From NCBI GenBank assembly GCA_905181635.1, contig CAJIYM010000003.1, positions 124,001 to 188,000 of the forward strand: 64,000 nucleotides of DNA, read 5' to 3'. Each line of letters starts with the position of its first letter. Position 1 is the first letter of the stretch. The stretch is from an uncultured Flavobacteriales bacterium (lineage in GTDB: Bacteria > Bacteroidota > Bacteroidia > Flavobacteriales > BACL11). The translations under genes were made by a program, and so were the position numbers. Below are positions 36,990-60,293 of this stretch, piece after piece. The notes beneath the pieces are model-generated. The model did no database searches, had not been told where the DNA came from, and was given only the letters and a program-made list of their open reading frames with translations.

Positions 36990-39776
36990 TTATCGCTTAC
37001 ATATTGACTTGTAGTCACACCATTCACAAGCCTTAAAATCAACTGCTTGAGTGAAATCTTCATTCTTAATTTGACTTAGAATAAATTCCAATTGCTCTTC
37101 CACATCATCAATGACATTAGCATTAATGTTAATTACTTCCTTTTGCCTGTTTCCAGTTTTTTTACACACTTTAATTAGTCCTGATTTCAAGTTCTTAAAT
37201 GCAAAATTCCCAGCAACCACCTCTACATCCATGTAGTGTTGGTTCATTTTTAAATACAAATAAGCATACATCAATAACTGAAAAGCTTTTGCTTTTTTAT
37301 TATTAGAAGTAAGTTCATCATATTCTGCAAAGGAAACATCATTTTCTTCTACTTTTCCTGTCTTGTAATCTATAATTCTAAGGATATCTCCCTCAAAATC
37401 TACTCTATCCGCCTTTCCAATCAATTTAAAATTAAGCCCATCAACAAGTAAGTCATGCACCAAAAACTCCTCTTTACTTATTAACTTAATTTGCTTATTA
37501 TTTACATTTGCTTCTTTAAGTAACTGCTTCTCTAAATTTAAAAAATCCTTTGTTAATTTTTGAGCAATCTGCAGACTTAAATAATTTTTACCCTCCTTCA
37601 TTCCTTGCTTAGAAAGGGCAGCAATAAAATTACCCTCTATGTCTTTAAGAATTGCAGGGCTAATTTCCTTTATGATTTTTTCAGTAAGCACACCAATAGG
37701 ATAATATTTTTCCAACGCATCATGAATAGCTGTACCCAAAATACTGGAATCAGCATACTCCTCTACCTGATCTTCTATCCTAATTTTAGCCAAATAATGA
37801 TAGTAAAAGGACAAACTACAATTTGTGTACTTATTTAATGCAGACGGAGAGACTCCTTTCTCAGCCCAAGCCTCAATCTCCTTTTCTAATCCTTCATTTT
37901 TAATTGTAATAGATACTGTATTGCTAACCACCAAGTCATCTCCTTTATAAACTAATTCCTTAATCTCACCAGCATATTCAGACAATAGTTGAGTAATAAA
38001 TCTACTTTTTTCACCGGAACCAAAATCATCCGTTACAGAATTATAAATAAGCGTAATATTTTTTGCCCTTTGCAATAATCGGTAGAAATGATAAGAAAAT
38101 ACTGCATCACTCTCGTTATAAGTAGGTAATTTAAAGTAGCGCTTCATATCATAGGGAATAAATGAATTGACCGACTTTCCTTTTGGTAATTTTCCTTCAT
38201 TCACGCTTAACATAATTATATTTTTAAAATCAAGCGTTCTACTCTCCAGAATACCCATTAGCTGCACCCCCTTCAAAGGCTCTCCTTTAAAAGGAATACT
38301 TTCTTTGGCCACCAATTGCTGCATAATAATTTGCAAAGTTTTTAGTTCAATTGCAAAATTATTTTTTAAAATTAGATTTTTTAAAATTGCAAGTGAATTG
38401 TAAAATGCCGCTAATATTTCTGATTCAATAGAGCCTTTTTTACCCAATAAAGGTAATTTCAATTCCTCAATTAAATTATTAAAGGTCTGCAAAGCATCAT
38501 CAACACTATTCCAAAGAAGAAATATAAGTTTTGCAGTTTTACTATTCTCAAAATATCCGTCAATATTATGCCGTGTAACAAACACAATATTACTTTTAGT
38601 AATAAAACGCATAAACGCAATTCTATCATTTATTTTAGTAATCTTTGAAAAATATGGATGCTCAATAATTGCAATAACATCTTTGAAATAAAATGCCTTC
38701 CGATTATACTTTACTGAATGAATTTGCAATTTAAAAATTGCTTCCACTAAAGAAAAGAGAGCGGTATTTTTAAGAGGACTACCCATGGTAACATTCAATT
38801 GTTTTATCTCAGAAGGCAAATTATATAATACCGGGAAAAGCAAAGCTTCATCTGCCAAAACAATAGCTGTATTGCTATTATCCAAATCTGATGAATCAAA
38901 CCCTTTAACCACCTCAGCTGCAACCTTTGCTTGCGTAATATTTTTAGGACAAGCAATCACATTAAAACTTTCCTTTTTCTTATTAAAATAATCTCCTACT
39001 CCATTAAAATCAATTTCCGACCATTTCTCTCTTTGTTTCCTTAAAAAACCTCCGGCTTCATGCTGAGAATTATCATAATAGAAACTATCTGCATCCCAAA
39101 ATACCCTTGCAATATCTTCTTTTTTTAGGTAATCAATAATTTCATGTTCTGACTTTGTAAGTGCATTTAAACCTACAAACCAAACTTTATTCCATTTCAC
39201 CTGAGCATTAGAAATGTTTTTGGCTGCAAACTTATATGCCATTCCTTGGTAAGCTAATTTTTCTTCTAAAAGTAAATCATTAAACTGTTTATACCAATCC
39301 AACATGCCTTCAAAAAAACTAATATAATCGAGCTGCATATTAGAAAGATTATCTTCAGACAAACTCCAATTATCGACACCCCAATCTTCTAACTCCTTTA
39401 CATTCTTTAAATTTGTATAGATAGATTTTGCATCTACCAAGTTTCTATCTATCTCATTAAAATCATGCAACAGAACGTTACTCCAACTTAAAAAATCGTC
39501 AAATGAATCAATTTTTTTAGGAGGAAAATTAAGATAAGATTGATATAATTTAAATTGCAAAGAGATATTATCTAAAACGGATAGGCCTGAAAGTTTTTCA
39601 GTAAATTCCTCAATAGAATAAAAATCAGGAAGGAAAATAGGATGTTTAATTTTTTGTGACAAATAGTGTTTTAAGAATACTACTGAACGCTTTGAAGGTA
39701 ATACAACTGCAACCCCCTCCATACTAACAGGGTATTTACTAAGCAATCTATCTGCTATTTTATCTAAAAATGCCAT
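36990..39776 (-). CDS. PD-(D/E)XK nuclease family protein (AddB-like)
   Basis: C-terminal SALNKYTNCSLSFYYHYLAKI, LRIIDYKTGKVEEND, CEWCDYKSIC. Confidence 0.85.
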   Translation of the reverse strand: MAFLDKIADRLLSKYPVSMEGVAVVLPSKRSVVFLKHYLSQKIKHPIFLPDFYSIEEFTEKLSGLSVLDNISLQFKLYQSYLNFPPKKIDSFDDFLSWSNVLLHDFNEIDRNLVDAKSIYTNLKNVKELEDWGVDNWSLSEDNLSNMQLDYISFFEGMLDWYKQFNDLLLEEKLAYQGMAYKFAAKNISNAQVKWNKVWFVGLNALTKSEHEIIDYLKKEDIARVFWDADSFYYDNSQHEAGGFLRKQREKWSEIDFNGVGDYFNKKKESFNVIACPKNITQAKVAAEVVKGFDSSDLDNSNTAIVLADEALLFPVLYNLPSEIKQLNVTMGSPLKNTALFSLVEAIFKLQIHSVKYNRKAFYFKDVIAIIEHPYFSKITKINDRIAFMRFITKSNIVFVTRHNIDGYFENSKTAKLIFLLWNSVDDALQTFNNLIEELKLPLLGKKGSIESEILAAFYNSLAILKNLILKNNFAIELKTLQIIMQQLVAKESIPFKGEPLKGVQLMGILESRTLDFKNIIMLSVNEGKLPKGKSVNSFIPYDMKRYFKLPTYNESDAVFSYHFYRLLQRAKNITLIYNSVTDDFGSGEKSRFITQLLSEYAGEIKELVYKGDDLVVSNTVSITIKNEGLEKEIEAWAEKGVSPSALNKYTNCSLSFYYHYLAKIRIEDQVEEYADSSILGTAIHDALEKYYPIGVLTEKIIKEISPAILKDIEGNFIAALSKQGMKEGKNYLSLQIAQKLTKDFLNLEKQLLKEANVNNKQIKLISKEEFLVHDLLVDGLNFKLIGKADRVDFEGDILRIIDYKTGKVEENDVSFAEYDELTSNNKKAKAFQLLMYAYLYLKMNQHYMDVEVVAGNFAFKNLKSGLIKVCKKTGNRQKEVININANVIDDVEEQLEFILSQIKNEDFTQAVDFKACEWCDYKSICKR

Positions 39777-42700
39777 TATAATACTTCAACTTTTATTTCA
39801 TCATCAATATACACCAAAACACGCTTTGTATTTTCATATCCCATATCATTTAAAGCAGATGCATAATCAGTAATTTGTGATTCATGATCTGTACTCTTTA
39901 CTCCAGTTTTATAATCTATTACTACTACTTCATCAGTATTTTTCGCAAATAACAACCTATCAGGAATGTAAGTTCTCCCATTTTCCATTAAAATTTCTTT
40001 TTCGGTTTTTACTGTCCAATTTTCATCAAAGTAAGGAACTATATTTTTATTTCCCAACAATTGATCAATCGTTATTTTTAACTTTTCAGCATCTTCTTTT
40101 GAACATCTACCCAACTTGTAAAAACCCTCAACAACCTTTTCCTGTTGATCCAAATAATGAATTTCCGAAAGCACTAAGTGTAATAGTTTTCCCCAATCCC
40201 TTTTTGCATTTGCTGACTCAATATCCCAAATTTCTTCAGAAGAATGCTTTAATGAAAGAACTTCTTTCCAATCTAATTTATTACGTTTTTTTACTAAAAA
40301 GGAATCTTCTATTTTCGTATTATATTCATGCATCATATCTGCATCTCCAATTTCAATTGGAAAATTATCATCATATGCATATAAAAAAGAATTGAGATCT
40401 TCTTTCTTCTTAAAATCATCAGAAGGTTTGTCAGGAAAATACTTTGAGAAAATATACAAACGCTCTTTAGGGCGTGTCATTGCAACATAGAGTTTATTTA
40501 AGCTATCCAATAAGCTCATTTCTTTCTCTTTCTGATATTCTGAACTAAAATAAGATTGCTCTAGTTGCTTATTCCCATTAATTAATGCAGATGGTAATTG
40601 TTTATTAAAACAAGTAGAAGTGTCTACCCAAATATCAGTTGTTTTTTTTCTATCCTCCCAATTAAAAGGAATCATAACAACATTAAAAGCCAAACCTTTT
40701 GACTTATGAATAGTCATGATCTGCACGGCATTAGTTCCTTCAGGAATTACAATTGATTCTTTACTCTTTCGTTCTTCCCACCACAATAAAAATTCAGAAA
40801 GACTACTTCCTTTTTTTTCAGTATAAGCCAACACTACATCCAAAAAGAATTGCAGATAAATATCTTCATCAAATCTAAATAAACGAATAAGCTGCTCCAC
40901 CATTTCATACAAGGGCTCTTGTAATAATTTTTCAGCATTAATAAATATTTTAGCTTTCTTAAGTACGTTAATGAATCCTACTTCAGTTTTAACTTTTAAA
41001 TTTAAGGTATGTAAATTTTCGTCCGATAAAATATGTAAAAATAGATATACTGAAATTACTGATTTAGAAATAGCATCTTTAGGATTTTGCAAATAACACA
41101 ATAGAGCAATTAAGACATTAACTTTATCGGACTTACTAAGTAATAAACCTTCATTTGAAATTACTGGTATTTTTGCTAAAGAAAATGCCTCAGCTACCAA
41201 AGCAACTCTTTTTCTAGTATTACATAGTATAGTTACATCATTATAACTGTAGTTATTTTCATTTACAAGCTTATTAATTTCATCTACCATCTTTTCCAGA
41301 ATTAACTGCTTAAAATCATGTTCTTTATCTCCAAAAAGCTCAATCCGCACATAACCTCCATCTTTTGAAAAGTCGCTTTTCTGCTGCTGATCATCATAAA
41401 TATCAATAATATCATTAGAAAGCAATGATTTTGTATTTTCAAAAAACTGATTATTAAACTCTACAATATGTTTTCTACTTCTAAAATTATTCAATAAATT
41501 ATCTGATTCAAAATGAAATTCTAATTTTTGTTCCCAATCCTTTTTAAAAAGCAAACCTTCTCCTTTATAAATTTTTGGCAGTTGAGAGAACTGCTCTACC
41601 TCCCCTCCTCTCCATCTGTAGATAGATTGTTTTCCATCTCCGACAACTAAGCTTTTCCCATAATCTAATGAGTCAGTAATTAAAGGCAATATATTTTGCC
41701 ATTGCAAAAGGGACGTGTCCTGAAATTCATCAATTAAATAATGATTATATCGCTCCCCTAACCGTTCATAGATAAAAGAGGAAGGCTGATTGGTTACTAA
41801 CTTATGTATCTTCTTATTGAACTCTGAAATTTGTTCAATATTATTTTCTTTTTTAAAGGTTCTTATCTCACCCATCAATTCGTTAAGAATAGCAATAGAA
41901 TAAATATTTTTAAGTATTGCTTTTATAGAATTATACTCATTGAGCAAATTCATTATCTCTGTAAAAAATTGTTTCAAATTAGATTTTAGACTATCAACTA
42001 AATCTTTAATTTCAACCTTCTTCCCATCTGCATACCAAATATCATTCGCTATATTTCTAAGCATTGCATCAGAAGGAATCCATTTTTTATCTTGGCTATG
42101 ACCTAAATTTTCAGTAAAATACTTGTAAAAAGTTCCTCTTAAAAAATGATCTTTTGTTAGCCCATTAACATCAAAAAATACGCATACTCTATCAGCTAAA
42201 CTCTCAACTTTTAGTTTTATTCGCTCTTTATCTAATTGCAAATCCTTTTTCACTTGCATGCATTGCTTAACTGTCAGTATTTTCCCATCTGTAAAAGCAG
42301 CAACTTCTTCTTTTAACAATTGCATAGAAAACTCTTCCAAATCTCGCTCAATATTTGTACTCTTTCCATCCTCTGCTTTTTGCATTGCAAAGTTTACTAG
42401 CGCATTAGAAAAATCACCTCCTGAATCAGACATTTTACCTAAAAGCAAAGCCACAACAGGCTGAATGATCTTATAGGAATCCATTTCTAAATCAAAATTA
42501 TTTGCCAAACCTAAATCGGAAGCAAAAGTTCTAACAATTTTATAGGTAAACTTATCAATGGTTGAGATTCCTAAATCAGCATAATGATGTAAAATATGCG
42601 TATGAACAACAGCTGCTCTTTTAAAAATTTCCTCTTTATCTAAATTAGTTTTTTCTAGCAACCAATCCAATACACCATCTTTATCTTCTTGTTTTGATAA

Positions 42701-42898
42701 CTTATCCAAATATTCCAGCACCCTTTCCTTCATCTCAGTTGCTGCCTTGTTGGTAAAAGTAATGGCTAATATTTTCCTGTAATAATCAGCATATCCAAAA
42801 CGTCCACCTTGTAATGCTAAAGCTATAAAGCTTAAGGAAAGCGTATAAGTTTTTCCACTACCAGCTGAAGATCGAAATACTTGAAAATTTTTATTCAA
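39776..42898 (-). CDS. UvrD/Rep-family helicase with C-terminal nuclease (AddA-like)
   Basis: FRSSAGSGKTYTLSLSFI, LAITFTNKAATEMKERVLEYL, LIDEFQDTSLLQW, VVGDGKQSIYRWRGG, IMTIHKSKGLAFNVVMIP, VVVIDYKTG. Confidence 0.92.
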   Translation of the reverse strand: MNKNFQVFRSSAGSGKTYTLSLSFIALALQGGRFGYADYYRKILAITFTNKAATEMKERVLEYLDKLSKQEDKDGVLDWLLEKTNLDKEEIFKRAAVVHTHILHHYADLGISTIDKFTYKIVRTFASDLGLANNFDLEMDSYKIIQPVVALLLGKMSDSGGDFSNALVNFAMQKAEDGKSTNIERDLEEFSMQLLKEEVAAFTDGKILTVKQCMQVKKDLQLDKERIKLKVESLADRVCVFFDVNGLTKDHFLRGTFYKYFTENLGHSQDKKWIPSDAMLRNIANDIWYADGKKVEIKDLVDSLKSNLKQFFTEIMNLLNEYNSIKAILKNIYSIAILNELMGEIRTFKKENNIEQISEFNKKIHKLVTNQPSSFIYERLGERYNHYLIDEFQDTSLLQWQNILPLITDSLDYGKSLVVGDGKQSIYRWRGGEVEQFSQLPKIYKGEGLLFKKDWEQKLEFHFESDNLLNNFRSRKHIVEFNNQFFENTKSLLSNDIIDIYDDQQQKSDFSKDGGYVRIELFGDKEHDFKQLILEKMVDEINKLVNENNYSYNDVTILCNTRKRVALVAEAFSLAKIPVISNEGLLLSKSDKVNVLIALLCYLQNPKDAISKSVISVYLFLHILSDENLHTLNLKVKTEVGFINVLKKAKIFINAEKLLQEPLYEMVEQLIRLFRFDEDIYLQFFLDVVLAYTEKKGSSLSEFLLWWEERKSKESIVIPEGTNAVQIMTIHKSKGLAFNVVMIPFNWEDRKKTTDIWVDTSTCFNKQLPSALINGNKQLEQSYFSSEYQKEKEMSLLDSLNKLYVAMTRPKERLYIFSKYFPDKPSDDFKKKEDLNSFLYAYDDNFPIEIGDADMMHEYNTKIEDSFLVKKRNKLDWKEVLSLKHSSEEIWDIESANAKRDWGKLLHLVLSEIHYLDQQEKVVEGFYKLGRCSKEDAEKLKITIDQLLGNKNIVPYFDENWTVKTEKEILMENGRTYIPDRLLFAKNTDEVVVIDYKTGVKSTDHESQITDYASALNDMGYENTKRVLVYIDDEIKVEVL

Positions 42899-43892: not shown

Positions 43893-45227
43893 TTATTCCA
43901 CAACTATTTTTCTTTCAACAGATCCATTATTATAAATATTTATAAAGGGTTTATTACTTGATGGAATTACATTTTTACCTAGAAAATCTACTGATTTAGT
44001 TAGTTTCATATCATTTAAATTAACACCTTCATTAACAGCACTTATTTGGGTTAACGTACCATACAAAAAGTGTACTTCACGCTCAGTAGATGCAGTATAA
44101 ACAACTGAGAAATTTCCTAAATAAGGACCTCCATAAGTGATATCAGGTTCAATTTTATGTCCAAAAGTAGCTATATCTGAAATTATACCATTATATAAAC
44201 TTTTACCATCACTTCCAATTACACTATAGAAGCATTCCTTATTCCCATTTCTGTTTTCCTCCCAAACACTAATAAAATAATTTAAATCTGTAGCAATTTC
44301 TGCTTTATCTTGTAAAGGACTTCCTGCTGACTCTACTTGAGAAAAATAAGATTTTTGCAAATCATCTGCGTTAACATTAGACTTATACAGCTCATTTACA
44401 CCAGAACCCCCATTACGCCTTACAACCATAATACTATCGCCGAGTACTGCACCAACTGGTGAAGAAGTAGGACAGGAATTGAACACCCAATTTATATCAT
44501 CTAAATCCTGAGCAGTTGTAAAAGTCAAGCCTTCATCAGTTGATTGAGCGATATAAGAGTTTCGTACATTATTCTCATTATTTCTAAATAACAAATACAC
44601 ACTATTTTCATTAGTAACCAAAGTAGACTGACAACAATCACAAGGCTCACCAGGAGCTAAAGCACTAACATCTGCTGCAGGGGAAAAACTCATTCCAAAA
44701 TTAAAGGAGGTTTTTACTACTTGTTTCCAATCTGTCCAATTTGGCAAACATTCCATATAAGAAACAATAGGGTTTCCGTCCTCACGAACAGATATATTTG
44801 GCATTGCAAATTTGTGTGTATTTGAATTATCTGAAACTCTGATTGTATCAGAGAAAGTAAAGCCTCCATCAAAAGAACGCTTTAAATAAATAACATGATT
44901 GTTATGCAATAAAGATTCAAAAATAAGATAAATAGTATCTCCATTTGCAGCAATTTCAGGACCTATAAAACCAGTTGGCATCAAATCAGAATTTACCAAA
45001 TCAAAAGCACTATCAAAATCAGTTCCATTCCATTTTCTAGCTTTTATTGCTTTTGGTGTAGATGGTTTTGACCAAATAACAAAAGGACTATTATTAGCAG
45101 CTAGTACTACTCTTGGTCTATCATAGCCTTCGGAAGGACCACTACTAATTATGTAAGTAGCACTTGGATTAAAGTATTGTCCAGATGAAAAAATGGGTAA
45201 TAACAGAAAAAATATAAAAGGTTTCAT
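43893..45227 (-). CDS. Secreted sialidase/BNR-repeat-like protein
   Basis: Signal peptide; repeated YLKRSFDGGFTFSDTIRVS and AQSTDEGLTFTTAQDL (BNR/Asp-box-like); C-terminal INIYNNGSVERKIVVE. Confidence 0.6.
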   Translation of the reverse strand: MKPFIFFLLLPIFSSGQYFNPSATYIISSGPSEGYDRPRVVLAANNSPFVIWSKPSTPKAIKARKWNGTDFDSAFDLVNSDLMPTGFIGPEIAANGDTIYLIFESLLHNNHVIYLKRSFDGGFTFSDTIRVSDNSNTHKFAMPNISVREDGNPIVSYMECLPNWTDWKQVVKTSFNFGMSFSPAADVSALAPGEPCDCCQSTLVTNENSVYLLFRNNENNVRNSYIAQSTDEGLTFTTAQDLDDINWVFNSCPTSSPVGAVLGDSIMVVRRNGGSGVNELYKSNVNADDLQKSYFSQVESAGSPLQDKAEIATDLNYFISVWEENRNGNKECFYSVIGSDGKSLYNGIISDIATFGHKIEPDITYGGPYLGNFSVVYTASTEREVHFLYGTLTQISAVNEGVNLNDMKLTKSVDFLGKNVIPSSNKPFINIYNNGSVERKIVVE

Positions 45228-45260
45228 AGTAATGATTTCTTGCGTAAATATATATTAAAG

Positions 45261-48258
45261 TTAACGTATAATAAAAATAGGGCCTTTATCTTGATGCTTC
45301 CAGCCTTCAAAATCTTGGAAATATACTTCATAAATATAGGTTCCCATAGGTAAATCATTTCCTGTTTTATAATGCTTACCATCCCAACCATTTTCATTTA
45401 AGAAACACTCTAAGTCAGCAATATTTTCAGTAGCATATACTAAATTAGAAAAACGATCATAAACATTAAAATAAAAAGTAGCCTCTCTAATCCCATGATG
45501 TGTTAAACAAAATAAATCATTAATTCCATCATAATCAGGTGTGAATGAATTTGGAATATACATCCAATAATCATCTGCAACCCATAGTTGTTTAAATGTA
45601 GTGTCGCTACAACCGACATCATCTGTAACAATTAAATTCAATTGATAAATTCCTATTGAATCTTTAAAAACATGATAAGGGCTTGAAGTATAATCATTAG
45701 GCGTATTATCTCCAAAATCCCAATTCCAAGCTACTATATTTCCTATCGAAATATCATTTAATTGTACAGAAGGATATAAAACAGACAAAGTATCGCTAGT
45801 GTTGCAAAAAGTGCGGTAGGTGATTCTAAAACTGTAACTAAAGCAGAACCATTAATACTACCACTGTTATTAGCATCTGAAAAATATGTCAATGTATATA
45901 CTCCATCTTGTTTGGGTTTAATATAATAAGGATTATCACTTGTAGTGATAGCTTGACTGAGCTGACACCATTAATGGCATAAATAAAAGTATAGGGCAAT
46001 AAGCCTGAAATAAAGGAAACCTTAACATCAGCCTGAGCTAAACTATTATCACAAACTACTTCATCTCCAGAAATAAATGCTGCTAGTGGAGGAATTAAAC
46101 TAATTACTAATTTAACAGTATCATTATATGCTGAAACAAAGGAATTAACCTCAGTATTACCATTTAACATAGTAATACTATCATAATCCCAACTTACAAA
46201 AGAATACAAAGGATCGATATTAGGTGTTAATGTAATGTTCTCATTATTATAATAAATTGCACTAGTTGGGAAAATACTCGTATTTATACCATTAATATCA
46301 ATAGTTGTTGTCGTTCCAGTTGGGAAAACATCATAGATAATTGTTGGTTTTTTATAAATATTTAATCTTACAGTATCAGAAGATGTAACATTAAAAGAAG
46401 CATTAGGAGATACATTACTAGGGAAAATTGTAACACTATTTGAACTCCAAGATGTAAAACCATACAAAGGATCAATAGTAGATGAAATATTTACAGGAGA
46501 ATCAATATAATAATCTGCAGAAAATGGAAAGGCACTAATCACTTGACCATCTACAGTAATAGTAGAAGTAGTCGATAAATCATTAAGAGTATAAACTACT
46601 CTAAATCCTAATCTCTGATGTACAATTGAATTAATAAACAGGGTATCACAACCATCAATTTCAAATATTGGGTAGGAAAATAAACCTGTATCTGATGGGA
46701 TTAAAAACCATACTATCTGCTGCCATAGATAGTATCATATGTATTATTAATTGTAAAGCTACCAGGTGTCATACTCATTTTCCATACAAAAATATCTTTC
46801 TTCCTGCCTGTTGCATCCAAAATAGTGCCATCAAAATCTGCTAAATCTTCAAAAAAACCTATAGCGTATACATTGCCAAAACCATCAGGACAAATATCAC
46901 CTGTTCTATCATCATCATCTGTAGCAGAACCACCCATCTTTGCCCAAACCCAATCTCCATTGTTAGAAGCCCCATCTATCTGAGCTACCCAAGCAGATAA
47001 AGTAGTATCACCAGCAATCTGGGCATCAACTACTAATCCATTTGAAAATGTCATTTCTCCTCCTAGCAGTACCACAAACAAAAACTTGCTTATTAGCATC
47101 TACAGACATTTGATAAGGCTTATCTGTTCCTTGCACTCCTTGCTCTTTTTGCCCATTTCCAATCTCCTTGATTATTCATCTTTGCAACAAAAACATCTCT
47201 TTTTTGCTTATGACTTAAAGTATCTGTATTATTTGAAGCATTAGCCCCAGGAAATACCATAGGGTTACGATATTCTCCTGTAATATAAATATCATCACAA
47301 ACATCAATAGCTATACTATTTGCTCTATCTGTTTTATTACTACCAAATCCTTCTGCCCACAGCCAATTACCATCCTTATCCATCTTAAAGATAAAAGCAT
47401 CCCACTCACCATTAGAAGTAATAGAATAAGGCCCATAATTACCTGTCCCCTGAAATCCACCTACAACATAAATATTTGAGAATTGATCAATAGCCAATCT
47501 ATTATCACGTGAACCCCTCTGATCTTTAATACCATCAAAATTATCTACCCAAACCAATTACCGCTAGGATCTAATTTACCAATGTAACCTTGTGGCTGAC
47601 AATTTACCCAATTTGGATTATTCAATGTAAATCCTCCAATAAATTCGGCTTCATCACCTGAAAAGAAACCAGTTATATAAATAAATCCATCATCATCCAC
47701 TTTCACATCATATGAATGATCATCTGAAGAATAAATACCACCACCACATGCAGGTGAAAAAGTATTATTATCATCAATTATAGATATAACGAATTCACAA
47801 TTGCCATCTTTATCAATCTTAGTTAACATAGAATTGTCAGCCCCATTACTAGACGAATTTGTTACAGCACCTGGTGTGTTGTAGGGAAATTCAATATCTG
47901 CCCAAAATGTTCCGGTTAAAAACACATCACCTGCTGGAGTTACATGCATTCCTAAAGCTCTATCATCATAAGGACCTCCACCTCCTGAAATAGCCCATAT
48001 AACAGTGCCAAACGAATCAAGTTTAGCAACAAACATATCTTTATTGTTATTTTGACTACCATTATAAACAAGATTAAAAGGTCCGAAATCAGCATTATTA
48101 TTAAAAAACCCACTGATGTAAATAAAACCTAATGAATCTGCTCCTATTGAAATACCTTTGTCAGATTTTGAGCCCCCAAATGATTTCACCCAATCAGTTG
48201 TTTGAGAAAATACATTAACACTAAAGAAAATAAATAAAAAAATTAAAGTTTTGTTCAT
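45261..48258 (-). CDS. T9SS substrate paralog B: N-terminal SBBP-like repeats, two InlB/Listeria-Bacteroides-like repeats, PKD-like domain, gliding motility-associated C-terminal (type B) domain; several frame breaks
   Basis: ORFs 47545..48405 (real ATG 48258), 47120..47557, 46713..47099, 45889..46542 and 45261..45788 are collinear with copy A. Confidence 0.75.
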
Positions 48259-50550
48259 AAATATATGTTTAACGTATGATAAAAATAGGGCCTTTATCTT
48301 GATGCTTCCAGCCTTCAAAATCTTGGAAATATACTTCATAAATATAGGTTCCCATAGGCAAATCATTTCCTGTTTTATAATGCTTACCATCCCAACCATT
48401 TTCATTTAAGAAACACTCTAAGTCAGCAATATTTTCAGTAGCATATACTAAATTAGAAAAACGATCATAAACATTAAAATAAAAAGTAGCCTCTCTAATC
48501 CCATGATGTGTTAAACAAAATAAATCATTAATTCCATCATAATCAGGTGTGAATGAATTTGGAATATACATCCAATAATCATCCGCAACCCATAGTTGTT
48601 TAAATGTAGTGTCGCTACAACCGACATCATCTGTAACAATTAAATTCAATTGATAAATTCCTATTGAATCTTTAAAAACATGATAAGGGCTTGAAGTATA
48701 ATCATTAGGCGTGTTATCTCCAAAATCCCAATTCCAAGCTACTATATTTCCTATCGAAATATCATTTAATTGTACAGAAGGATATAAAACTGACAAAGTA
48801 TCGCTAGCTGTAGCGAAAAGTGCAGTAGGTGATTCTAAAACTGTAACTAAAGCAGAACCATTAATACTACCACTGTTATTAGCATCTGAAAAATATGTCA
48901 ATGTATATACTCCATCTTGTTTGGGTTTAATATAATAAGGATTATCACTTGTAGTGATAGTTGACTGAGCTGACACCATTAATGGCATAAATAAAAGTAT
49001 AGGGCAATAAGCCTGAAATAAAGGAAACCTTAACATCAGCCTGAGCTAAACTATTATCACAAACTACTTCATCTCCAGAAATAAATGCTGCTAGTGGAGG
49101 AATTAAACTAATTACTAATTTAACAGTATCGTTATATGCTGAAACAAAGGAATTAACCTCAGTATTACCATTTAACATAGTAATACTATCATAATCCCAA
49201 CTTACAAAAGAATATAAAGGATCGATATTAGGTGTTAATGTAATGTTCTCATTATTATAATAAATTGCACTAGTTGGGAAAATACTCGTATTTACACCAT
49301 TAATATCAATAGTTGTTGTCGTTCCAGTTGGGAAAATATCATAGATAATTGTTGGTTTTTTATAAATATTTAATCTTACAGTATCAGAAGATGTAACATT
49401 AAAAGAAGCATTAGGAGATACATTACTAGGGAAAATTGTAACACTATTTGAACTCCAAGATGTAAAACCATACAAAGGATCAATAGTAGATGAAATATTT
49501 ACAGGAGAATCAATATAATAATCTGCAGAAAATGGAAAGGCACTAATCACTTGACCATCTACAGTAATACTAGAAGTAGTCGATAAATCATTAAGAGTAT
49601 AAACTACTCTAAATCCTAATCTCTGATGTACAATTGAATTAATAAACAGGGTATCACAACCATCAATTTCAAATATTGGGTAGGAAAATAAACCTGTATC
49701 TGATGGGTTAAAAACCATACTATCAGCAGCATAGATAGTCTCATATGTATTATTAATTGTAAAGCTACCAGGTGTCATACTCATTTTCCATACAAAAATA
49801 TCTTTCTTCCTGCCTGTTGCATCCAAAATAGTGCCATCAAAATCTGCTAAATCTTCAAAAAAACCTATAGCGTAAACATTCCCAAAACCATCAGGACAAA
49901 TATCATTTGTTCTATCATCATCATCTGTATCAGAACCACCCATCTTTGCCCAAACCCAATCTCCATTGTTAGAAGCCCCATCTATCTGAGCTACCCAAGC
50001 AGATAAAGTAGTATCACCAGCAATCTGTGGAGGCGCAACCAATCCACTATTGAAAAGTCATTTCTCCTTTCGCCGTACCACAAAAAACACTTGCTTATTG
50101 ACATCAACCGACATTTGATATGGTTTATCTGTCCCAGATCTTCTTGCTCTTTTTGCCCATTTCCACTCTCCTTGATTATTCATCTTTGCAACAAAAACAT
50201 CTCTTTTTTGCTTATGACTTAAAGTATCCGTATTATTTGAAGCATTAGCCCCAGGAAATACCATAGGGTTACGATATTCTCCTGTAATATAAATATCATC
50301 ACAGACATCAATAGCTATACTATTTGCTCTATCTGTTTTATTACTACCAAATCCTTCTGCCCACAGCCAATTACCATCTTTATCCATCTTAAAGATAAAA
50401 GCATCCCACTCACCATTAGAAGTAATAGAATAAGGCCCATAATTACCTGTCCCCTGAAATCCACCTACAACATAAATATTTGAGAATTGATCAATAGCCA
50501 ATCTATTATCTCGTGAACCTCTCTGATCTTTAATACCATCAAAATTATCT
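45261..50550. repeat. Direct repeat: 45261-47545 nearly identical to 48269-50550
   Basis: Line-by-line comparison shows long identical stretches with scattered substitutions and 1-nt indels; spacing about 3.0 kb. Confidence 0.9.
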
Positions 50551-51269
50551 ACCCATAAGCCAATTACCGCTAGGATCTAATTTACCTATATACCCATAGG
50601 CTGACAATCCACATCCCAATCAGGATTTGTAATAGTAAACCCATCAAAATCTGCATCAAAACCAGAGAAAGAATCCTGTAACATAAATAAATCCATCATC
50701 ATCTACTTTCACATCATATGAATGATCATCAGCATCATAAATTGGATAAGGACAGCCACCAGAAGTATTATTCCCTCCAAAACCAATTACCCATTCAGGA
50801 TTTCCATCTGTATCAATTTTAGCAAGTAGAGAATTATCGTGATTATTTATTCCAGTAGTTGCAGTTATAGTGCCAGGAGCTCCATTAACACCCAATTTAT
50901 AAGAACTCCAAAAGGTGCCAGTAATAAAGACATCTCCCCCTGGTGTAACATGCATTCCTAAAGCTCTGTCATCACAACAACCACCTGATTGATTACCACC
51001 TGGAATAGCCCACAACACATTTCCATTTGAATCCAGTTTAGCAATAAAATTTTCTTTATTAGTGCCTGGATTTCCATTAGAAAAAGTAATAGCCCAAATG
51101 TCGCTTCACTATTATAAAAACCACTTATATAAATAAAACCTAAGGAATCTGTACCTATACTTATTCCTTTGTCTGAATTTACACCTCCAAATGATTTTAC
51201 CCAATCAGTAGTTTGAGATGTTAAATTTAAACTTAAAAAGACTAAAATAAACAATATTATTTTTTTCAT
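48269..51269 (-). CDS. T9SS substrate paralog A (tandem copy of the previous gene); several frame breaks
   Basis: ORFs 50958..51269, 50656..51018, 50058..50501, 48945..50042 and 48269..49036 are collinear. WNWDFGD...PYHVFKDSIGIYQLNLIVTDDVGCSDT (PKD-like) and YIPNSFTPDYDGINDLFCL (type B CTD). Confidence 0.75.
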
Positions 51270-51273
51270 TTTA

Positions 51274-53232
51274 TTAGTAAATTACATTAACATTACCTGA
51301 CTTAACAAATAAATTACCATCTTCCCCATATACCTCTATTTTATAATAGTATGTACCCTGCTGAACCTTACTATTGTTAAATGCTCCATCCCAATGCTTT
51401 TCTATTGAATTACTTTCAAATAACTCCTCACCCCACCTGTCAAATATCTTTAAATTAAAAATAACAATATGTTCTCCAGTAACAACAAATAACTCATTAT
51501 GTTCATCATCATTTGGAGTAAACGAATTTGGAATAAAAAGCTGGGTAATTGGGACAAGATTAACTACAGCAACATTAGACAGAGCAATACACCCATTTCC
51601 ATCTGTTACCTGCACATAAAAATTTCCTGAATCAGTAATTTCAAGAACTTCTTCATTACTGATTAACATATTATCTGTACTATACCATTCATAAAAAGCA
51701 TAATTACCTACAGTTAATTCTACTTCTTCATTTTCATAAATGGTTATTTCTGATGGCGAAATAATAGCTTCTGGCATTGGAAAAACTGTAAGGTTTACTA
51801 CTCCGCCTAAAATATCTGCTTCACAACCATTAATGTCACTTACTAAGACTATTTCATAATCCCCTTCATCGCTAGTAATCAATGTAAAATCTGATGTGTT
51901 AATATTAAAAATTGATTCATTTACTGAACCATTTGAATATATTAAATCCCAAGGCAATAATCCATTGAATTCAAACGTAATATTTAATATTGATCCATCA
52001 TCACATATTTCACCCCCTCCGGATATTTGAGAGATTGGAGTAATATCTTGTATGATAGTAACTTGATCGTTTGCAATACATCCATTTACATCAGTAACAA
52101 TCAAATCAATTACTCCATCACTAACGGTAATATTAGAAGCTGAAGATCCGTCACTCCACTGATAGTAATAAGGAAAATTTCCACCTGAAAGAATAGGATC
52201 AATAAGAAAGGTAGATCTACATGGAATCGTTTGATCTATTCCTAATGATAAAATCGGAACATCATTTACAATAATATTTTGATCTTTAGTGTCAGAACAT
52301 CCATTAGCATCAGTTATATCATAGGTGATAATATTTGAACCCAATAAACTTACATCAGGAGTAAAGATCCCAGTACTAACTCCATTACCAAAATAAGTTC
52401 CTCCCGATGGAGTTGCTGAATTTAAATTTATCGCATTAGCATCACTACATACTTCACTAAATGCAGGAAAATTAATAATAGGATCAGCATTAATATTAAT
52501 AATTAAATTAGCCGTATCATCAGGACAGGTAACTGTTGCTCCAGGCACTGGGATTCCAGGAACAATATAAGAAAAAATACCACTAGAATATAATGAAGGG
52601 TCAAAAATATTACCACCAAAATTTGTCCATAGATCATCATACCAAGCACCCCCTGGGTTAGGTGAACCAATTAATTGATTTTCCATAATAAATATAGGAT
52701 CACTATTACAAAAATCTACAGTATTATCAAGACCAGCATCACCAGCAAGACAACAACTTGTTGACCCTAAACCTCCTGTTAAAGAAAAATCAATATTACA
52801 TGATGCATTTGAAAAATTAGTAATTAATAAAATATAATATTCTCCAATTACTGCATTTGCAATGTCACAAACCTCAATAGGAGCTGGAGAGTAACTACAG
52901 TCTTCTGTATTTACAGCTGTTAGATTATCACACATCGTTGTAGGATCTGTGAAAGGACCCCAACAAATAAAATCAATATCTAATAATGGTGTACTTTGCA
53001 TAGTTATTGATAGATTGCCTGGTTGATCAATCTGCAAAAAATAGAATGCAGGATTGGGTTGTGTCAATAAACACCCATAATCAGGGCCTATTGGTGCGGT
53101 TGTATTAGTAGATGCTGGAAAACCAATAGGAGTACTTGTACAAAATGGTTGTGAATTTATACAGTCACTTGATTGAGAATACATTAAAATACAACTAAAT
53201 ATTGTAATAAATAATAATAATTTTTTTTTCAT
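51274..53232 (-). CDS. T9SS type B sorting (gliding motility-associated C-terminal) domain protein, intact
   Basis: Signal peptide; C-terminal LFIPNSFTPNDDEHNELFVV...NLKIFDRWGEELFES...WDGAFNNSKVQQGTYYYKIEVYGEDG. Confidence 0.85.
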   Translation of the reverse strand: MKKKLLLFITIFSCILMYSQSSDCINSQPFCTSTPIGFPASTNTTAPIGPDYGCLLTQPNPAFYFLQIDQPGNLSITMQSTPLLDIDFICWGPFTDPTTMCDNLTAVNTEDCSYSPAPIEVCDIANAVIGEYYILLITNFSNASCNIDFSLTGGLGSTSCCLAGDAGLDNTVDFCNSDPIFIMENQLIGSPNPGGAWYDDLWTNFGGNIFDPSLYSSGIFSYIVPGIPVPGATVTCPDDTANLIININADPIINFPAFSEVCSDANAINLNSATPSGGTYFGNGVSTGIFTPDVSLLGSNIITYDITDANGCSDTKDQNIIVNDVPILSLGIDQTIPCRSTFLIDPILSGGNFPYYYQWSDGSSASNITVSDGVIDLIVTDVNGCIANDQVTIIQDITPISQISGGGEICDDGSILNITFEFNGLLPWDLIYSNGSVNESIFNINTSDFTLITSDEGDYEIVLVSDINGCEADILGGVVNLTVFPMPEAIISPSEITIYENEEVELTVGNYAFYEWYSTDNMLISNEEVLEITDSGNFYVQVTDGNGCIALSNVAVVNLVPITQLFIPNSFTPNDDEHNELFVVTGEHIVIFNLKIFDRWGEELFESNSIEKHWDGAFNNSKVQQGTYYYKIEVYGEDGNLFVKSGNVNVIY

Positions 53233-53237
53233 TTTTT

Positions 53238-55601
53238 TCAATAAATTATACTTACAGTCCCTGATAATTCCACAATTATATTATCATCTCCAAGAACCTT
53301 AACATTATAATAATACGCTCCTTCTTGAACTTTTTTATTAGCAAAAGTTCCATCCCAACTTTTATCAATTGATTCACTCATAAACATCAACTCTCCCCAT
53401 CTATTAAAGATCTGAATATTAAATGTTTTTACATTTATCACCTAATTATTACAAACAATTCATTATGATCATCACCATTAGGAGTAAATGTATTTGGAAT
53501 AAATAAATTAGTATAAGGTTGAGTATTCACAATAGCATATCTGAAACATCATCACAACCATTGAAATCTATTACTTCAACATAAAAATTCCAGAATCAGA
53601 AACGGTTAATGTAGAGAAAGTATCTAAATCTAAGCCTTCATCACTATACCAATGGTACATTGCATAATCACCAACCTCTAACTCAATAGTTTCATCCTCA
53701 TAAATAAAAGATTCAGAAGGAGAGATATTGCCACTGGTAAAGGATGAACTATGACCTTGTGCAGTTCCAACAATATTTGCAAGACAATCATTAATATCAG
53801 AAGCAGAAACAACATCATAAATACCTTCATTAGAAGTAGTAACTAAATAATTAGAATAGTAATACCTTGAATTGTTTGAGTTACTTAAACCATTTGTAAA
53901 TTCTAAATCCCAAGGCAATAAACCATTAAAATTAAAATTCATATCAGTAAAGTCCATTATCACAAATTGAACCACCACCACTTAAAGTAACGTTCCTGGA
54001 ATATCTTCTGTAATCATCTATATCATCCGAAGCTGAGCAATTCCAAAAATCTGAAACAGTAAGTGAATAAATTCCCTCCGAAAAGCTAAACTTGAATTTA
54101 TTGATCCATCATTCCATGCATAAGAGTAAGGTGGAGTACCTCCAACTATATTGGGAATAAGAGTTGTAGTTGTATTACATGCAATAGCATAATCTAAACC
54201 TAAATCAATACTAGGAGGAGGATCATAAGTAATTGAAATACTTGAAGTATCTCCACACCCAAATAAATCCGTAATTATTAAATCATAATTACCCTCACCT
54301 AGAGTCTGTGAGCTAAGAGTTGAACCATTACTCCAAGAATAAACATATGGAGCTGTTCCCCCTAAAACATTAGGAATAAGTAGGTAAGATGAATTACAAG
54401 CAATAATAGTGTCAACACCTAAATCAACATTTGGAAAATCTCCTTCAATAACTCTCAAAGTATCAGAAAGTATAGCACATCCTGAAATATCTGCAGAAAC
54501 AACATAAATTCCTTCACCAACAGTTATACTTGAATCAGTACTAATAACTAAAGAAGTAGAATCAAACCACTGATAAGTAGCGCCTACTCCTCCATTTGCA
54601 GTTAGTGTAACAGTTGAATTGCAAGGAATACTCATAACTGCCGAATCTATACCTAAATCATCTATAATTGATAATGGAGGAGAATAAAAACTTCCTGCTT
54701 CCAGCCAAACATAAGAACTTAAACCACCATCAGTACCATCAGCAATTGCCAAGCGAATATGATATATTTCTCCACATTGAACTAATGCACTTGCAGTAAG
54801 TACAGTAGTAAACCCATCAGCATCAGCAATTGTACTTAAGCCATTCTGATTATCGACAAAATACTGTGGATTCATAATTGCAGGAGGGAAAGCACTTGGA
54901 TCGTTACAAACGGATGAAATAGTAATAGGTAAAGGTGGGACTGTGTTAGGTACAACTGCAAGATTAATCGAACCAAATGGATTAGGTGTTGGTGGTACTG
55001 TTAATACAATAGGTGGTGCATAATATGGACCTGAAATTCCAGGGCCTGACAGAAAAAAACCAAATACATCATTATACTGACTATTCTCAAATGCAAAATA
55101 TTCTTGAGATCCAAAAGCATATTTAAAATTTAAAGAATCAGATGTAGGAATAAAATCAAATTCTAAAATAGCAATATCATTTACTGAACTTACAGTGAAA
55201 GATTGCCCAATCATTCCCGGAACAGATTGCGCAACATTTAGTAAATCAGGATCAGTAACACCAGGAACTGGCATAGTAACTCCTACTCCTAAATTTATTG
55301 GATCTAGATTATAAATATCACCTGTACTCATTACAATACCACTATCAATTCCTAAACTAGTATTAACTGCATTAAACCAACCAATTTGAGCAGGAGCTCC
55401 CTGATAATTAGGAGACAGATAAGGTGTTGGTGGAAATCCAGTTGGCCCAAGAAGAGGTACAAGAGTAACACCACCACCTAATAATTGATTGTTAATTAAA
55501 TAATTAATATTATCATAAGGAGGATTGTTATCTATTACTATTTGCGATTTTAACATAAAAGAAGAAGAAATCAATACTAGAAGTATATTTAATTTATTCA
55601 T
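53238..55601 (-). CDS. Choice-of-anchor L domain protein with T9SS type B C-terminal domain, multiple frame breaks after ~54080
   Basis: N-terminal GIVMSTGDIYNLDPINLG..., DVFGFFLSGPGISGPYYAPP (54018..55601); continues in other frames through 53571..53981 to FNIQIFNRWGELMFMSESIDKSWDGTFANKKVQEGAYYYNVKV (53238..53441). Confidence 0.75.
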
Positions 55602-55604
55602 ATT

Positions 55605-58600
55605 TTATTTTATAATCAATTTAAAGATTACTTTTTCTTTCTGTTCCACTTCAATTTCTATAAAGTAAATACCACTTGCTTTATTTTCTCTTTTTAGGAT
55701 ATGTTTATCTGTATCTATAACATTATACTCCTCTATTAATTTACCAAACACATCTACTAACTTAATACTTGCCTGTTTTACCTGTTTCCCAAAATCAACT
55801 GTCGTCTCTTCTCTAAATGGATTAGGATAAATACTTAAAGCTATCCCAGAAGATAATTGACCAGCACCTGTTGATATATTATCAAAAATGTTTGACTCTA
55901 CAGTACATCCGTTCCCATCAGTTACAACAACATAATAAACACCATAATTAGCAACAATATATGTTACACTAGTACCTATTGAAACAAATGGATTAGACTG
56001 TTCTCTCCAAGAGTATGAGAATGGTGCTGTACCTCCTAATGGAATCCCTGAAGTTAACACATATGAACTCTCCGTAATATTCACACTTAATGCTTCTGGC
56101 TCTGTTACACTATAAGTAAACTCACGCTCACAACCATTACCATCTGTAACTGTTAGTGTATCAACACCTACAGTTAAATTACTCGCTAATGCAGATGTTT
56201 GACCTGAATTCCAAGTATAACTATAAGGAGGTATTGTTCCAGAAGATGAAGCCAATATACTACCCGTACTTTCCCCAAAACAATCTACGTGCTCTATTGT
56301 AACAGTATTCGTTATTGCTGAATACTCTACAACCTCTAAAGTATCACTTACACTACAGCCAAGCGTATTATTATAATTAGCTAATAAAACATAAATACCT
56401 GCCACTAAACTATCTACCTGAACACCTGATCCAATAACAACTCCTGAATTATTTATATTCTCCCAACTGTAACTGTAACCCGGATTCAAGTTAGGATTTA
56501 AAATAGTTAACACCCCTGTTGAAGAAGCATTACAAATAGTATCCGTTAAAATAGATATAGAAGCTACAGTGTAAGTGTCATAATCAACTACCTGCTGATT
56601 TACACCCCCAGCAATAACAGAGGAAGGACAATTATTAATATCTGTTAAAGCAACTGTATAATCCCCTGAGCAAACATTTGATATATAATTATTTGCTGTA
56701 ATAGAATGAGAGGTAATAAATCCTGTCTGATTATCTGTAAGTAAAGCAGTATATAAGGCAACTCCTCCTGACAAACTATCAATCAATATAGTACCATCAC
56801 AAGCACCTAAGCAGCTTTCTGAAGTACTCACGGAAATATTAAAGGTTAGGCTAGAAGGCTCAGATAAAACAATACTTCTGTTTACCATACAGTTATTTGT
56901 ATCTCTAATGGTTACTGAATAAACTCCTGAATATAAATTATTAATTGTAGCTGTAGTAGCAGAAGAACCTCCAAACCATTGATAAGCATAAGGTGCATGG
57001 CCTCCAGAAGCGGTTACCTGTGCACCACCATCATTATAACCAAAACAACTTACTTCATTACTATCCAAACCACCACTAGAATATTGATGTAAAGAGGCAA
57101 CACTTGCATCCATACTCTCTAAATAAACACGTAAGGTATCAGTACTTGCACTAGCGATACATCCCTTCGTATCTGTAACAGTAATGGTATAAGAACTATC
57201 AGATGAATTATAATTATCTGCCAATAAAGCACTAGCAGTAGTAGTTGTTTGTGGTAAATTTAAATTGTCATCCCAAACATAAGTATAGCCTGGAGTCCCT
57301 CCATAGGCAAAAGCAGATAAACTAGCGGTATTAACACCAACACAATAAGGTAATATTGTTTGAGTATCGTCTATCTCAATCATTAATTCTGTAGGCTCAT
57401 GAGTAAATACTGTATCACTTGCACTACACCCTTTTGCATCTGTAACTACAACTATATGTAAACCTGGAGTTAGTGTATTAATCGTATCACCTACCCACTG
57501 TCCATTATCCCAATCAAAAACATAAGGCAATGTACCTCCTACTGCTGTTGCTGCTGCTAAACCATCATTAGCACCATAACAATCTATCTGATCCAACTCA
57601 AATGCCTCCATACTCAAAGGCTCTGGCTCTGAAATATAAATACTATCAACAACCTCACAACCTAAAATATCTCTAGTAGTTACAAAATAACTACCCTGTA
57701 ATAGACCTACTGCTATATCTAAATTAACACCAACAGTCTGCTGACCTTGACTCCAAAAATAAGTGTACACACTAGAAAATCCTCCAACTGAACTAATAGT
57801 AGCAATACCATCAGCATCGCCATAACAACTAACGTTCTGAATATTAGTTAAATCAGATTCTATCAAAGGGTTCTCAGAAATATAAATACTATCAACAACC
57901 TCACAACCCCAATCATCTGATAAAGTAACTGAATGATAACCAGAAGTTAAACCATCAGCAATAGATGAAGTCTCTCCATTATCCCATAAATAAGCATAAT
58001 TAACCTGACCACCAGTAGCATATAAAATAGCCTTACCTACACTATCACTATAACAAGCTATACCCTCAACAAGAACCAAACTATCTATACTTAAAGCATT
58101 AGAAGGCTCTGGAACATTAAAAGTATAATCAACAAAACATCCCCTAACATCATAAATATGTAATACATAAATACCTGCAAATAAATCAAATAAAGTATCG
58201 CGCTCGCTTGTGCTTGTTCCAGAAAACCTGCTATCCAAAGTATCCCCCTGAGAATCTAACCAATAATAAGCATAAGGACCCCAACCACCTCCAGCATCTC
58301 CAACCAACATACCCGTATTATCCCCCTTACAAGGAACACCAAATATCTGAGCAGAAGCCTGCAAGGCAACCTGAGGCTCAATAATATTAACACTAGTAAA
58401 TGTGTCACAACCATTTGCATCCTCAACAGATAAATAATAACTACCTGCAATCAAACCAATAGCAGTATCGTTATCACTAAAACTAACAGGATTACCACTC
58501 TCATACCAAGAATAAATATAACCAGGTGTACCTCCAGCAGAAGAACCAACAACAAAGCCAGAACTACCACCATAACAAACAGCAACTTCTGAAGAAGCTA

Positions 58601-60233
58601 AAGCCTGTAAAGGAAATCCAGGAGCCGAAATAGTTACTGGGATAGTAATTTCACAAAATGCATTATCACTCACCTTGACATCATAAGTACCAGTCCCTAA
58701 TCCGAAAAAGGAAGTATCAAGAGGATATGCACTAGCATTTAAAACACCGTCTAAGTAAAAGCTATATGGAGTTAACTGAACACTATTAACATCAATAGCA
58801 ATATAGCCATCATGATAATCCCAACAATTTACATCAGTACTTGAAATAGTAAAATCTATAGGAGTTAATGTATCTGAAGTCAGCGTAACTACACATTCTG
58901 ATTCAGTAGTAACATAATAAAATTGAGTACCTTGGGACAAAGATGAGCTTGGTAATGAATAAGACGTAGCGGGGAAGAAAACATTATCAAGGAGATAATA
59001 AGGACCACCTAAATTTGTAGACCCCATTAAACGATACTTAGTTGTGAGAGATGCTCCAAAAGGATGCTCCCATTCAAAATAAAGAGAACCATTACTTTCG
59101 GCAACACAACTTAATAATGTTGGAGGTAAAGAATCTCCTGCACTTGATAAAACTATTAAAGAATCAGAATAAAAAGTACAACCTGCAATTGTTGCTCCTA
59201 CAACATAAGTTCCTGCACCAACAAAAACAATAGAATCTGTGCTAAAAACGACTGAATTAGAATCGAACCATTCATAAGTTGCACTGTCACCCGCATTTAC
59301 CGTTAACATTATATTTGCATCACATTCAATTAACATTGTAGTTGAGTCTATACCTAAGTCGTCAACAACACTAACAACAGGAGAAGAAAAACTTCCTGCC
59401 TCCAACCAAACATAAGAACTTAAACCAGGATCTGAACCATCCGCAATAGCAAGTTTAATATGATATGTCGCCCCACATTGAACAGTAGAAGTAGCTGTAA
59501 GTACAGTAGTAAACCCATCAGCATCAGCAATTGTACTTAATCCATTCTGATTATCAACAAAATACTGTGGATTCATAACAGCAGGAGGGAAAGCAGCTGG
59601 ATTGTTACAAACGGATGAAATAGTAATAGGTAAAGGTGGGACAGTGTTAGGCACAACTGCAAGATTAATCGAACCATTAGGAAAAGCTAAAGGAGAAGAC
59701 CAAGGGCCTACTATACCAGGACCAGAAAGAAAAAAACCAAATACATCATTATACTGTGTATTCTCAAATCCAAAATATTCTTGAGAACCAAAAGCATACT
59801 TAAACTCGAGTAGATTTGATGAAGCCACAAAATCAAATTCTAAAATAGCTACATCATTAATTGAGGAAACCGTAAAGGTTTGTCCAATCATTCCTGGAAC
59901 AGAGTTAGCAACAGCCAATAAATCAGGATCAGTAACAGTATTAGCAATAAAAGGAAAACCTCCCCCATTTATAGGATCCAAAGCATAAACATCGCCTGTA
60001 GATAGTACAATACCCTCAGAGATATTCAAGTTAGTATTAATAGCATCAAACCAACCTATTTGAGCAGAATCTCCTTGGAAAGAATGATTAGAAGCTACAA
60101 CCCCACCACCTAGCAATACATTATCAACTAGAGAAACAGGACTATTAAAAGGGGGTGTATTATCAATTACAATCTGAGACTGCACGTTAAAAAAACAAAA
60201 CACACAAATGATAAGTAGTAGTAAATTTTTCAT
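55605..60233 (-). CDS. Choice-of-anchor L domain plus about nine SprB-like repeats and T9SS type A sorting domain adhesin
   Basis: GIVLSTGDVYALDPINGG, DVFGFFLSGPGIVGP; repeats such as VSCYGDADGIATISSVGG, IDCYGANDGLAAATAVGG; C-terminal LSIYPNPFREETTVDFG...LVDVFGKLIEEYN...ASGIYFIEIE. ATG at 60233 preferred. Confidence 0.85.
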   Translation of the reverse strand: MKNLLLLIICVFCFFNVQSQIVIDNTPPFNSPVSLVDNVLLGGGVVASNHSFQGDSAQIGWFDAINTNLNISEGIVLSTGDVYALDPINGGGFPFIANTVTDPDLLAVANSVPGMIGQTFTVSSINDVAILEFDFVASSNLLEFKYAFGSQEYFGFENTQYNDVFGFFLSGPGIVGPWSSPLAFPNGSINLAVVPNTVPPLPITISSVCNNPAAFPPAVMNPQYFVDNQNGLSTIADADGFTTVLTATSTVQCGATYHIKLAIADGSDPGLSSYVWLEAGSFSSPVVSVVDDLGIDSTTMLIECDANIMLTVNAGDSATYEWFDSNSVVFSTDSIVFVGAGTYVVGATIAGCTFYSDSLIVLSSAGDSLPPTLLSCVAESNGSLYFEWEHPFGASLTTKYRLMGSTNLGGPYYLLDNVFFPATSYSLPSSSLSQGTQFYYVTTESECVVTLTSDTLTPIDFTISSTDVNCWDYHDGYIAIDVNSVQLTPYSFYLDGVLNASAYPLDTSFFGLGTGTYDVKVSDNAFCEITIPVTISAPGFPLQALASSEVAVCYGGSSGFVVGSSAGGTPGYIYSWYESGNPVSFSDNDTAIGLIAGSYYLSVEDANGCDTFTSVNIIEPQVALQASAQIFGVPCKGDNTGMLVGDAGGGWGPYAYYWLDSQGDTLDSRFSGTSTSERDTLFDLFAGIYVLHIYDVRGCFVDYTFNVPEPSNALSIDSLVLVEGIACYSDSVGKAILYATGGQVNYAYLWDNGETSSIADGLTSGYHSVTLSDDWGCEVVDSIYISENPLIESDLTNIQNVSCYGDADGIATISSVGGFSSVYTYFWSQGQQTVGVNLDIAVGLLQGSYFVTTRDILGCEVVDSIYISEPEPLSMEAFELDQIDCYGANDGLAAATAVGGTLPYVFDWDNGQWVGDTINTLTPGLHIVVVTDAKGCSASDTVFTHEPTELMIEIDDTQTILPYCVGVNTASLSAFAYGGTPGYTYVWDDNLNLPQTTTTASALLADNYNSSDSSYTITVTDTKGCIASASTDTLRVYLESMDASVASLHQYSSGGLDSNEVSCFGYNDGGAQVTASGGHAPYAYQWFGGSSATTATINNLYSGVYSVTIRDTNNCMVNRSIVLSEPSSLTFNISVSTSESCLGACDGTILIDSLSGGVALYTALLTDNQTGFITSHSITANNYISNVCSGDYTVALTDINNCPSSVIAGGVNQQVVDYDTYTVASISILTDTICNASSTGVLTILNPNLNPGYSYSWENINNSGVVIGSGVQVDSLVAGIYVLLANYNNTLGCSVSDTLEVVEYSAITNTVTIEHVDCFGESTGSILASSSGTIPPYSYTWNSGQTSALASNLTVGVDTLTVTDGNGCEREFTYSVTEPEALSVNITESSYVLTSGIPLGGTAPFSYSWREQSNPFVSIGTSVTYIVANYGVYYVVVTDGNGCTVESNIFDNISTGAGQLSSGIALSIYPNPFREETTVDFGKQVKQASIKLVDVFGKLIEEYNVIDTDKHILKRENKASGIYFIEIEVEQKEKVIFKLIIK

Positions 60234-60293
60234 AATCCAACAAAAATACAAAAAAATAAAGTGACCTACACTAAGAATAAATTGAAAATCTTA

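Follow-up and report, generated by a model that had tools for sequence, protein, structure and literature searches.

A tandem pair of predicted type IX secretion cargo genes with distinct heads and probably gene-converted tails in an uncultured marine Bacteroidota

Silent-cassette antigenic variation, driven by segmental gene conversion in surface-protein genes, is well known from Borrelia vlsE and Neisseria pilE. A related process, segmental concerted evolution, has been described for the homA/homB and babA/babB genes of Helicobacter pylori (PMC2795765; Pride and Blaser 2002 as cited there). In Porphyromonas gingivalis, identical repeat regions are common to adhesin and protease genes, and assembly fails there (PMC5266723). 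For the KLIKK proteases of Tannerella forsythia, where the reference sequence also held errors, the authors left the origin of the shared part open, suggested recent acquisition and made no test of conversion (PMC4404884). The process itself is already known; what is added here is its cast and its spread, in marine plankton, over unlinked loci whose heads are unrelated.

The window analysed here is a stretch of 64,000 nucleotides from an uncultured Flavobacteriales bacterium (source genome G000; G003 is the genome of a sister species in the same genus, and the other G numbers denote genomes of relatives). Two genes, A and B, lie in tandem on its minus strand. Our preferred reading, drawn from sequence comparison and given a probability of about 85%, is that they are an old tandem pair whose heads have been kept distinct and whose tails have been repeatedly overwritten by intragenomic gene conversion. 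The features concerned are the following.

43893-45227, minus strand: flanking BNR-like gene, downstream of the pair; a neighbour kept in G003, G004, G007 and G019
45261-48258, minus strand: gene A, the downstream copy (ORF list, frameshift-aware alignment to the G003 ortholog, Pfam)
45261-47545, minus strand: homogenised tail segment of A, 98-100% identical to B outside the island
45261-46378, minus strand: last ~1118 nt of A, common at 96% to an unlinked CotH-kinase gene (G000:C5:133113-136748)
47020-47140, minus strand: unconverted island in A (gene nt ~1116-1233; from identity and dS)
47546-48258, minus strand: divergent head of A, with the upstream G003 copy as ortholog (dS, tree)
48269-51269, minus strand: gene B, the upstream copy, with the architecture of A (Pfam and NCBIfam, intact 3' part)
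48269-50550, minus strand: homogenised tail segment of B
48269-49386, minus strand: last ~1118 nt of B, common at 97% to the same CotH-kinase gene (G000:C5:133113-136748)
50028-50144, minus strand: unconverted island in B (identity, dS)
50551-51269, minus strand: divergent head of B, with the downstream G003 copy as ortholog (dS, tree)
51274-53241, minus strand: flanking CHU_C gene (type B of the type IX secretion system, T9SS), upstream of the pair; orthologous in G003

Gene A comprises a signal peptide, an SBBP propeller, an Ig-like stalk, PKD and CHU_C. By Pfam and NCBIfam, the head is an SBBP beta-propeller (PF06739 matches the A head at 3.2e-7) and the tail carries PKD and CHU_C (T9SS type B sorting); CHU_C (PF13585) scores 46.7 bits at the C-terminus (cut-off 27) and the C-terminal signal TIGR04131 scores 35.1 (cut-off 35). 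The propeller part of the intact G003 ortholog was modelled (mean pLDDT 73), and the structure matched solved propellers, the best being the enzyme CylK (7roo, E 2e-20). SprA and PorU of the T9SS machinery are both found over cut-off in G000, and A and B are predicted to encode T9SS type B cargo. The neighbours are other predicted T9SS cargo genes, encoding BNR-like, CHU_C and choice-of-anchor-L/SprB-repeat proteins (Pfam, NCBIfam). Genes for AddB-like and AddA/RecB-like enzymes of double-strand-break repair occupy 36990-42898, immediately downstream of the pair; we set this proximity aside as probably coincidence. Elsewhere in the window, two small proteins contain short in-frame tandem repeats (29886-30052, 33 nt x5; 32020-32165, 18 nt x8).

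A self-BLAST of the window returned a single direct repeat of 3.08 kb (48225-51269 against 45205-48258). Over the first ~0.7 kb of the genes, A and B are ~61-78% identical (~47-78% per 100-nt block); identity then rises abruptly to at least 98% at 47540/50544 and, except for one island, holds to the stop codon through a tail of ~2.3 kb. The maximum chi-square breakpoint scores 383, whereas none of 2000 permutations exceeds 32; the longest identical run between A and B spans 232 nt, and chance yields no more than 143. An earlier note, made from the letters of this DNA, had described near-identical tails joined to diverged heads, a sharp boundary (~47550/50560) and a small divergent patch, and these observations are borne out: identity per 100-nt block breaks abruptly instead of declining gradually, and the patch is real and slightly wider than claimed (~47020-47140/50028-50144). 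The near-identity of the tails, which it extended to synonymous sites, is 98-99% and not perfect. Outside the island, the tails differ by 22 synonymous and 10 nonsynonymous changes, so the repeat is not a pure assembly duplicate. Within the island, A and B are 81% identical with a dS of 1.7. It begins at the same gene position in G000 and G003 (L036, gene nt 1116-1296), and in the downstream G003 copy this stretch is 99% identical to a G013 gene. Selection against homogenising the island and a separate transfer are the candidate causes. Further along the window, two adjacent choice-of-anchor-L genes (54018-55601 and 55605-60251) are 75% identical over ~950 bp, where identity reaches up to 83-88% in a core and decays to either side; they may represent an older or weaker case of the pattern seen in A and B.

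The history of the two gene parts can be read from G003, which has the same tandem pair between the same flanks. Head dS is 0.94 between A and B, 0.53 between A and the upstream G003 copy, and 0.37 between B and the downstream one; the tree joins the A head to the upstream G003 copy with a support of 99, and the head type of B is also the one present in G004 and G007. Because each of the two heads has its ortholog in a G003 copy, the pair is older than the species split. Tail dS, by comparison, is ~0.05 (0.049) within G000 and 0.004 within G003, and ~0.40 between the two species. The between-species value is in line with the usual divergence of housekeeping genes between G000 and G003 (uvrA and thrS, dS 0.38-0.64); since the within-genome values fall below it, tail homogenisation post-dates speciation. 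Head dN/dS of 0.07-0.26 indicates purifying selection; in the tails, dN/dS between A and B is 0.05-0.27 and the differences fall mostly at third positions. AU tests rejected every locus-wise tail grouping tried (p 4e-33 to 2e-74), with p values of 1e-44 and 2e-32 for the two tandem pairs. This is the pattern by which hom/bab-type evolution is recognised, in which one segment is orthologous between lineages and another clusters by genome with a lower within-genome dS.

A third locus takes part. On another contig of G000, an intact gene for a 1211-aa LTD/CotH-kinase protein (G000:C5:133113-136748), with a head unrelated to those of A and B, has its last 1118 nt (~1.1 kb) in common with them at 96-97%. 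Its tail dS is 0.11-0.13 to A and B versus 0.45 to its own ortholog, and the tail of its G003 counterpart is 99% identical to the G003 pair (dS 0.02). The tails at this locus thus match the pair of their own genome, and those of the three loci form one clade per genome. Taken together, the comparisons show that divergence is segmental, that the two sister species homogenised their tails independently, that each genome has a three-locus tail clade and that selection is purifying. The gene conversion or homogenisation that the earlier note had proposed is upheld by tails that group by genome and heads that group by ortholog in the two sister species, and by independent cases elsewhere.

These cases come from genomes in which both the SBBP and the CotH genes are assembled, compared over the last 200 codons. 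In G007, the tails are 97% identical within the genome and 68-70% identical to their orthologs, and are shared without a tandem. The tails of G004 are partly homogenised (86%) and those of G022 weakly. Conversion as a general trait of the family is ruled out, as the tails of most genomes remain specific to their locus. Several short-read MAGs have contigs that stop inside the tail and overlap exactly at their ends by 61-127 nt, as would be expected of a repeat common to several loci. DprA, considered as a pointer to natural competence, is uninformative: it is present in G013 and split in G007, and was not found in G000, G003 or G004, all of which are incomplete assemblies.

Neither A nor B is an intact ORF, a point that the earlier note overlooked. 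Frameshift-aware alignment to intact orthologs places seven single-nucleotide frameshifts in A (47552, 47125, 47061, 46721, 46696, 45956 and 45798) and seven in B (51094, 50667, 50596, 50556, 50080, 50052 and 48965). That both copies are real pseudogenes, still recombining, would account for the 14 events in total and for the one site common to A and B (45956/48965), and the frame of the downstream G003 copy is broken too, by 5 events. We nonetheless consider this unlikely: relative to intact orthologs there is no in-frame nonsense codon in A or B, tail dN/dS between them is low, and comparable noise is seen in an unrelated patch (53430-54090), where a choice-of-anchor-L/CHU_C gene (55601->53250) carries 12 frameshifts in ~650 bp against its G003 ortholog. 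This patch lies outside the near-identical repeat, and a similar one occurs in the CotH gene of G003. On the same three grounds, the frameshifts are likely to be local consensus errors. Their origin in the mixing of paralog reads at sites polymorphic between A and B is not supported, as the mean distance to the nearest mismatch is no smaller than chance (p 0.50).

As the frameshifts in both copies make plain, the consensus sequence is unreliable in detail here. The pair could be an assembly artefact, if there is really one gene only, or if the assembler or read corrector mis-resolved, duplicated or smoothed a repeat. Seven frameshifts per copy, the noisy patch at 53.4-54.1 kb and the short-read contigs that break within the tail all fit such an origin. 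Moreover, G003 appears, from its few long contigs, to be one of the FRAM18 long-read bins, for which PacBio HiFi reads were corrected with Illumina reads (PMC8254474), and in principle this correction could smooth repeats. We judge an artefact distinctly unlikely, given the head dS of 0.94, the distinct flanks and the bias of tail differences towards third positions. In addition, the tandem recurs in G003, an intact third copy stands on another contig, and G007, from another dataset, shows tail sharing without a tandem.

Exchange of heads has limited support. The leader and signal peptide follow position, but the mature heads have traded places between G000 and G003. Between G004 and G007, the head half of the SBBP gene (L038, L039; nt 90-1110) has a dS of 0.21-0.33 versus 0.7-1.7 for housekeeping genes, and looks like a transfer between species. 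The segment trees also conflict with each other. Heads may therefore have moved as well, as whole modules and between lineages. All three observations could be accommodated by switching of the antigenic-variation type, with a fixed tail and heads as exchangeable cassettes, and the earlier note had likened the pair to surface-antigen diversification systems. This likeness is not supported. No silent, 5'-less partial copies were found in the assembled part of G000 (~70% complete), where the only carriers of the tail are A, B and the C5 gene, all full-length, and the only carriers of the heads are A and B. Every copy has its own leader and stop, there are only two head types per genome, and the heads are orthologous and under purifying selection. 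What converts is the conserved tail (stalk and sorting module) and not a variable, exposed segment. Switching of this kind is highly improbable. The homogenised tail might also act as a shared recombination handle, letting this marine flavobacterial family move its display heads (propellers, kinase-like enzymes) from one position, locus or species to another. We regard this proposal as rather unlikely; if true, it would give these free-living plankton a T9SS display system that is modular and evolvable.

A recent tandem duplication followed by fast head diversification, without conversion, would fit the tail identity taken alone, but it has next to no probability and is ruled out by the comparison with G003, save for the case of independent duplications, with the same two heads, in both species, given that the A and B heads each have a G003 ortholog and the pair predates the split, that head dN/dS of ~0.2 gives no sign of positive selection, and that the tails of three loci group by genome.

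Under gene conversion between the tails of an old pair, the sequence of events would run as follows. A tandem pair of SBBP-propeller T9SS cargo genes would have retained two different head modules, and the tail halves (the rest of the propeller, the Ig-like stalk, PKD and the CHU_C signal) would repeatedly overwrite each other by intragenomic conversion. The last 1.1 kb would also be exchanged with the unlinked T9SS gene that bears a CotH-kinase head. Exchange would probably proceed by RecA-type homologous recombination, which the heads may escape by being too diverged or functionally distinct, and the tail would serve as a shared module for display and export. For uncultured marine Bacteroidota, this gives a well-tested example of unlinked loci that evolve in concert although their heads are unrelated, and it recurs in several of the family's lineages. 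There is a practical side too: contig ends or consensus failure inside the shared tail break or truncate such genes in MAGs, so that the surface-protein repertoires of these bacteria are under-counted.

Among known systems, vlsE and pilE differ in that no silent donors were found here in the assembled genome and in that the homogenised part is conserved, not variable. The KLIKK proteases of T. forsythia likewise join different catalytic heads to virtually identical T9SS C-terminal domains within one genome (PMC4404884), although the shared part is ~86 residues there and ~370-760 here. The kgp, rgpA and hagA genes of P. gingivalis belong to the same phylum and also encode T9SS surface proteins (PMC5266723); there, internal adhesin domains are shared and alleles are exchanged between strains, whereas here the whole 3' half is involved, to the stop codon. 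The closest precedent is homA/homB of H. pylori, outer-surface proteins in which the 5' segment groups by ortholog and the 3' segment of the paralogs by strain, with a highly polymorphic middle segment (PMC2795765). Unlike the hom and bab genes, for which the evidence is between strains, the present case is documented between species, and it joins a tandem pair of predicted T9SS cargo genes to a third, unlinked gene with an unrelated head.
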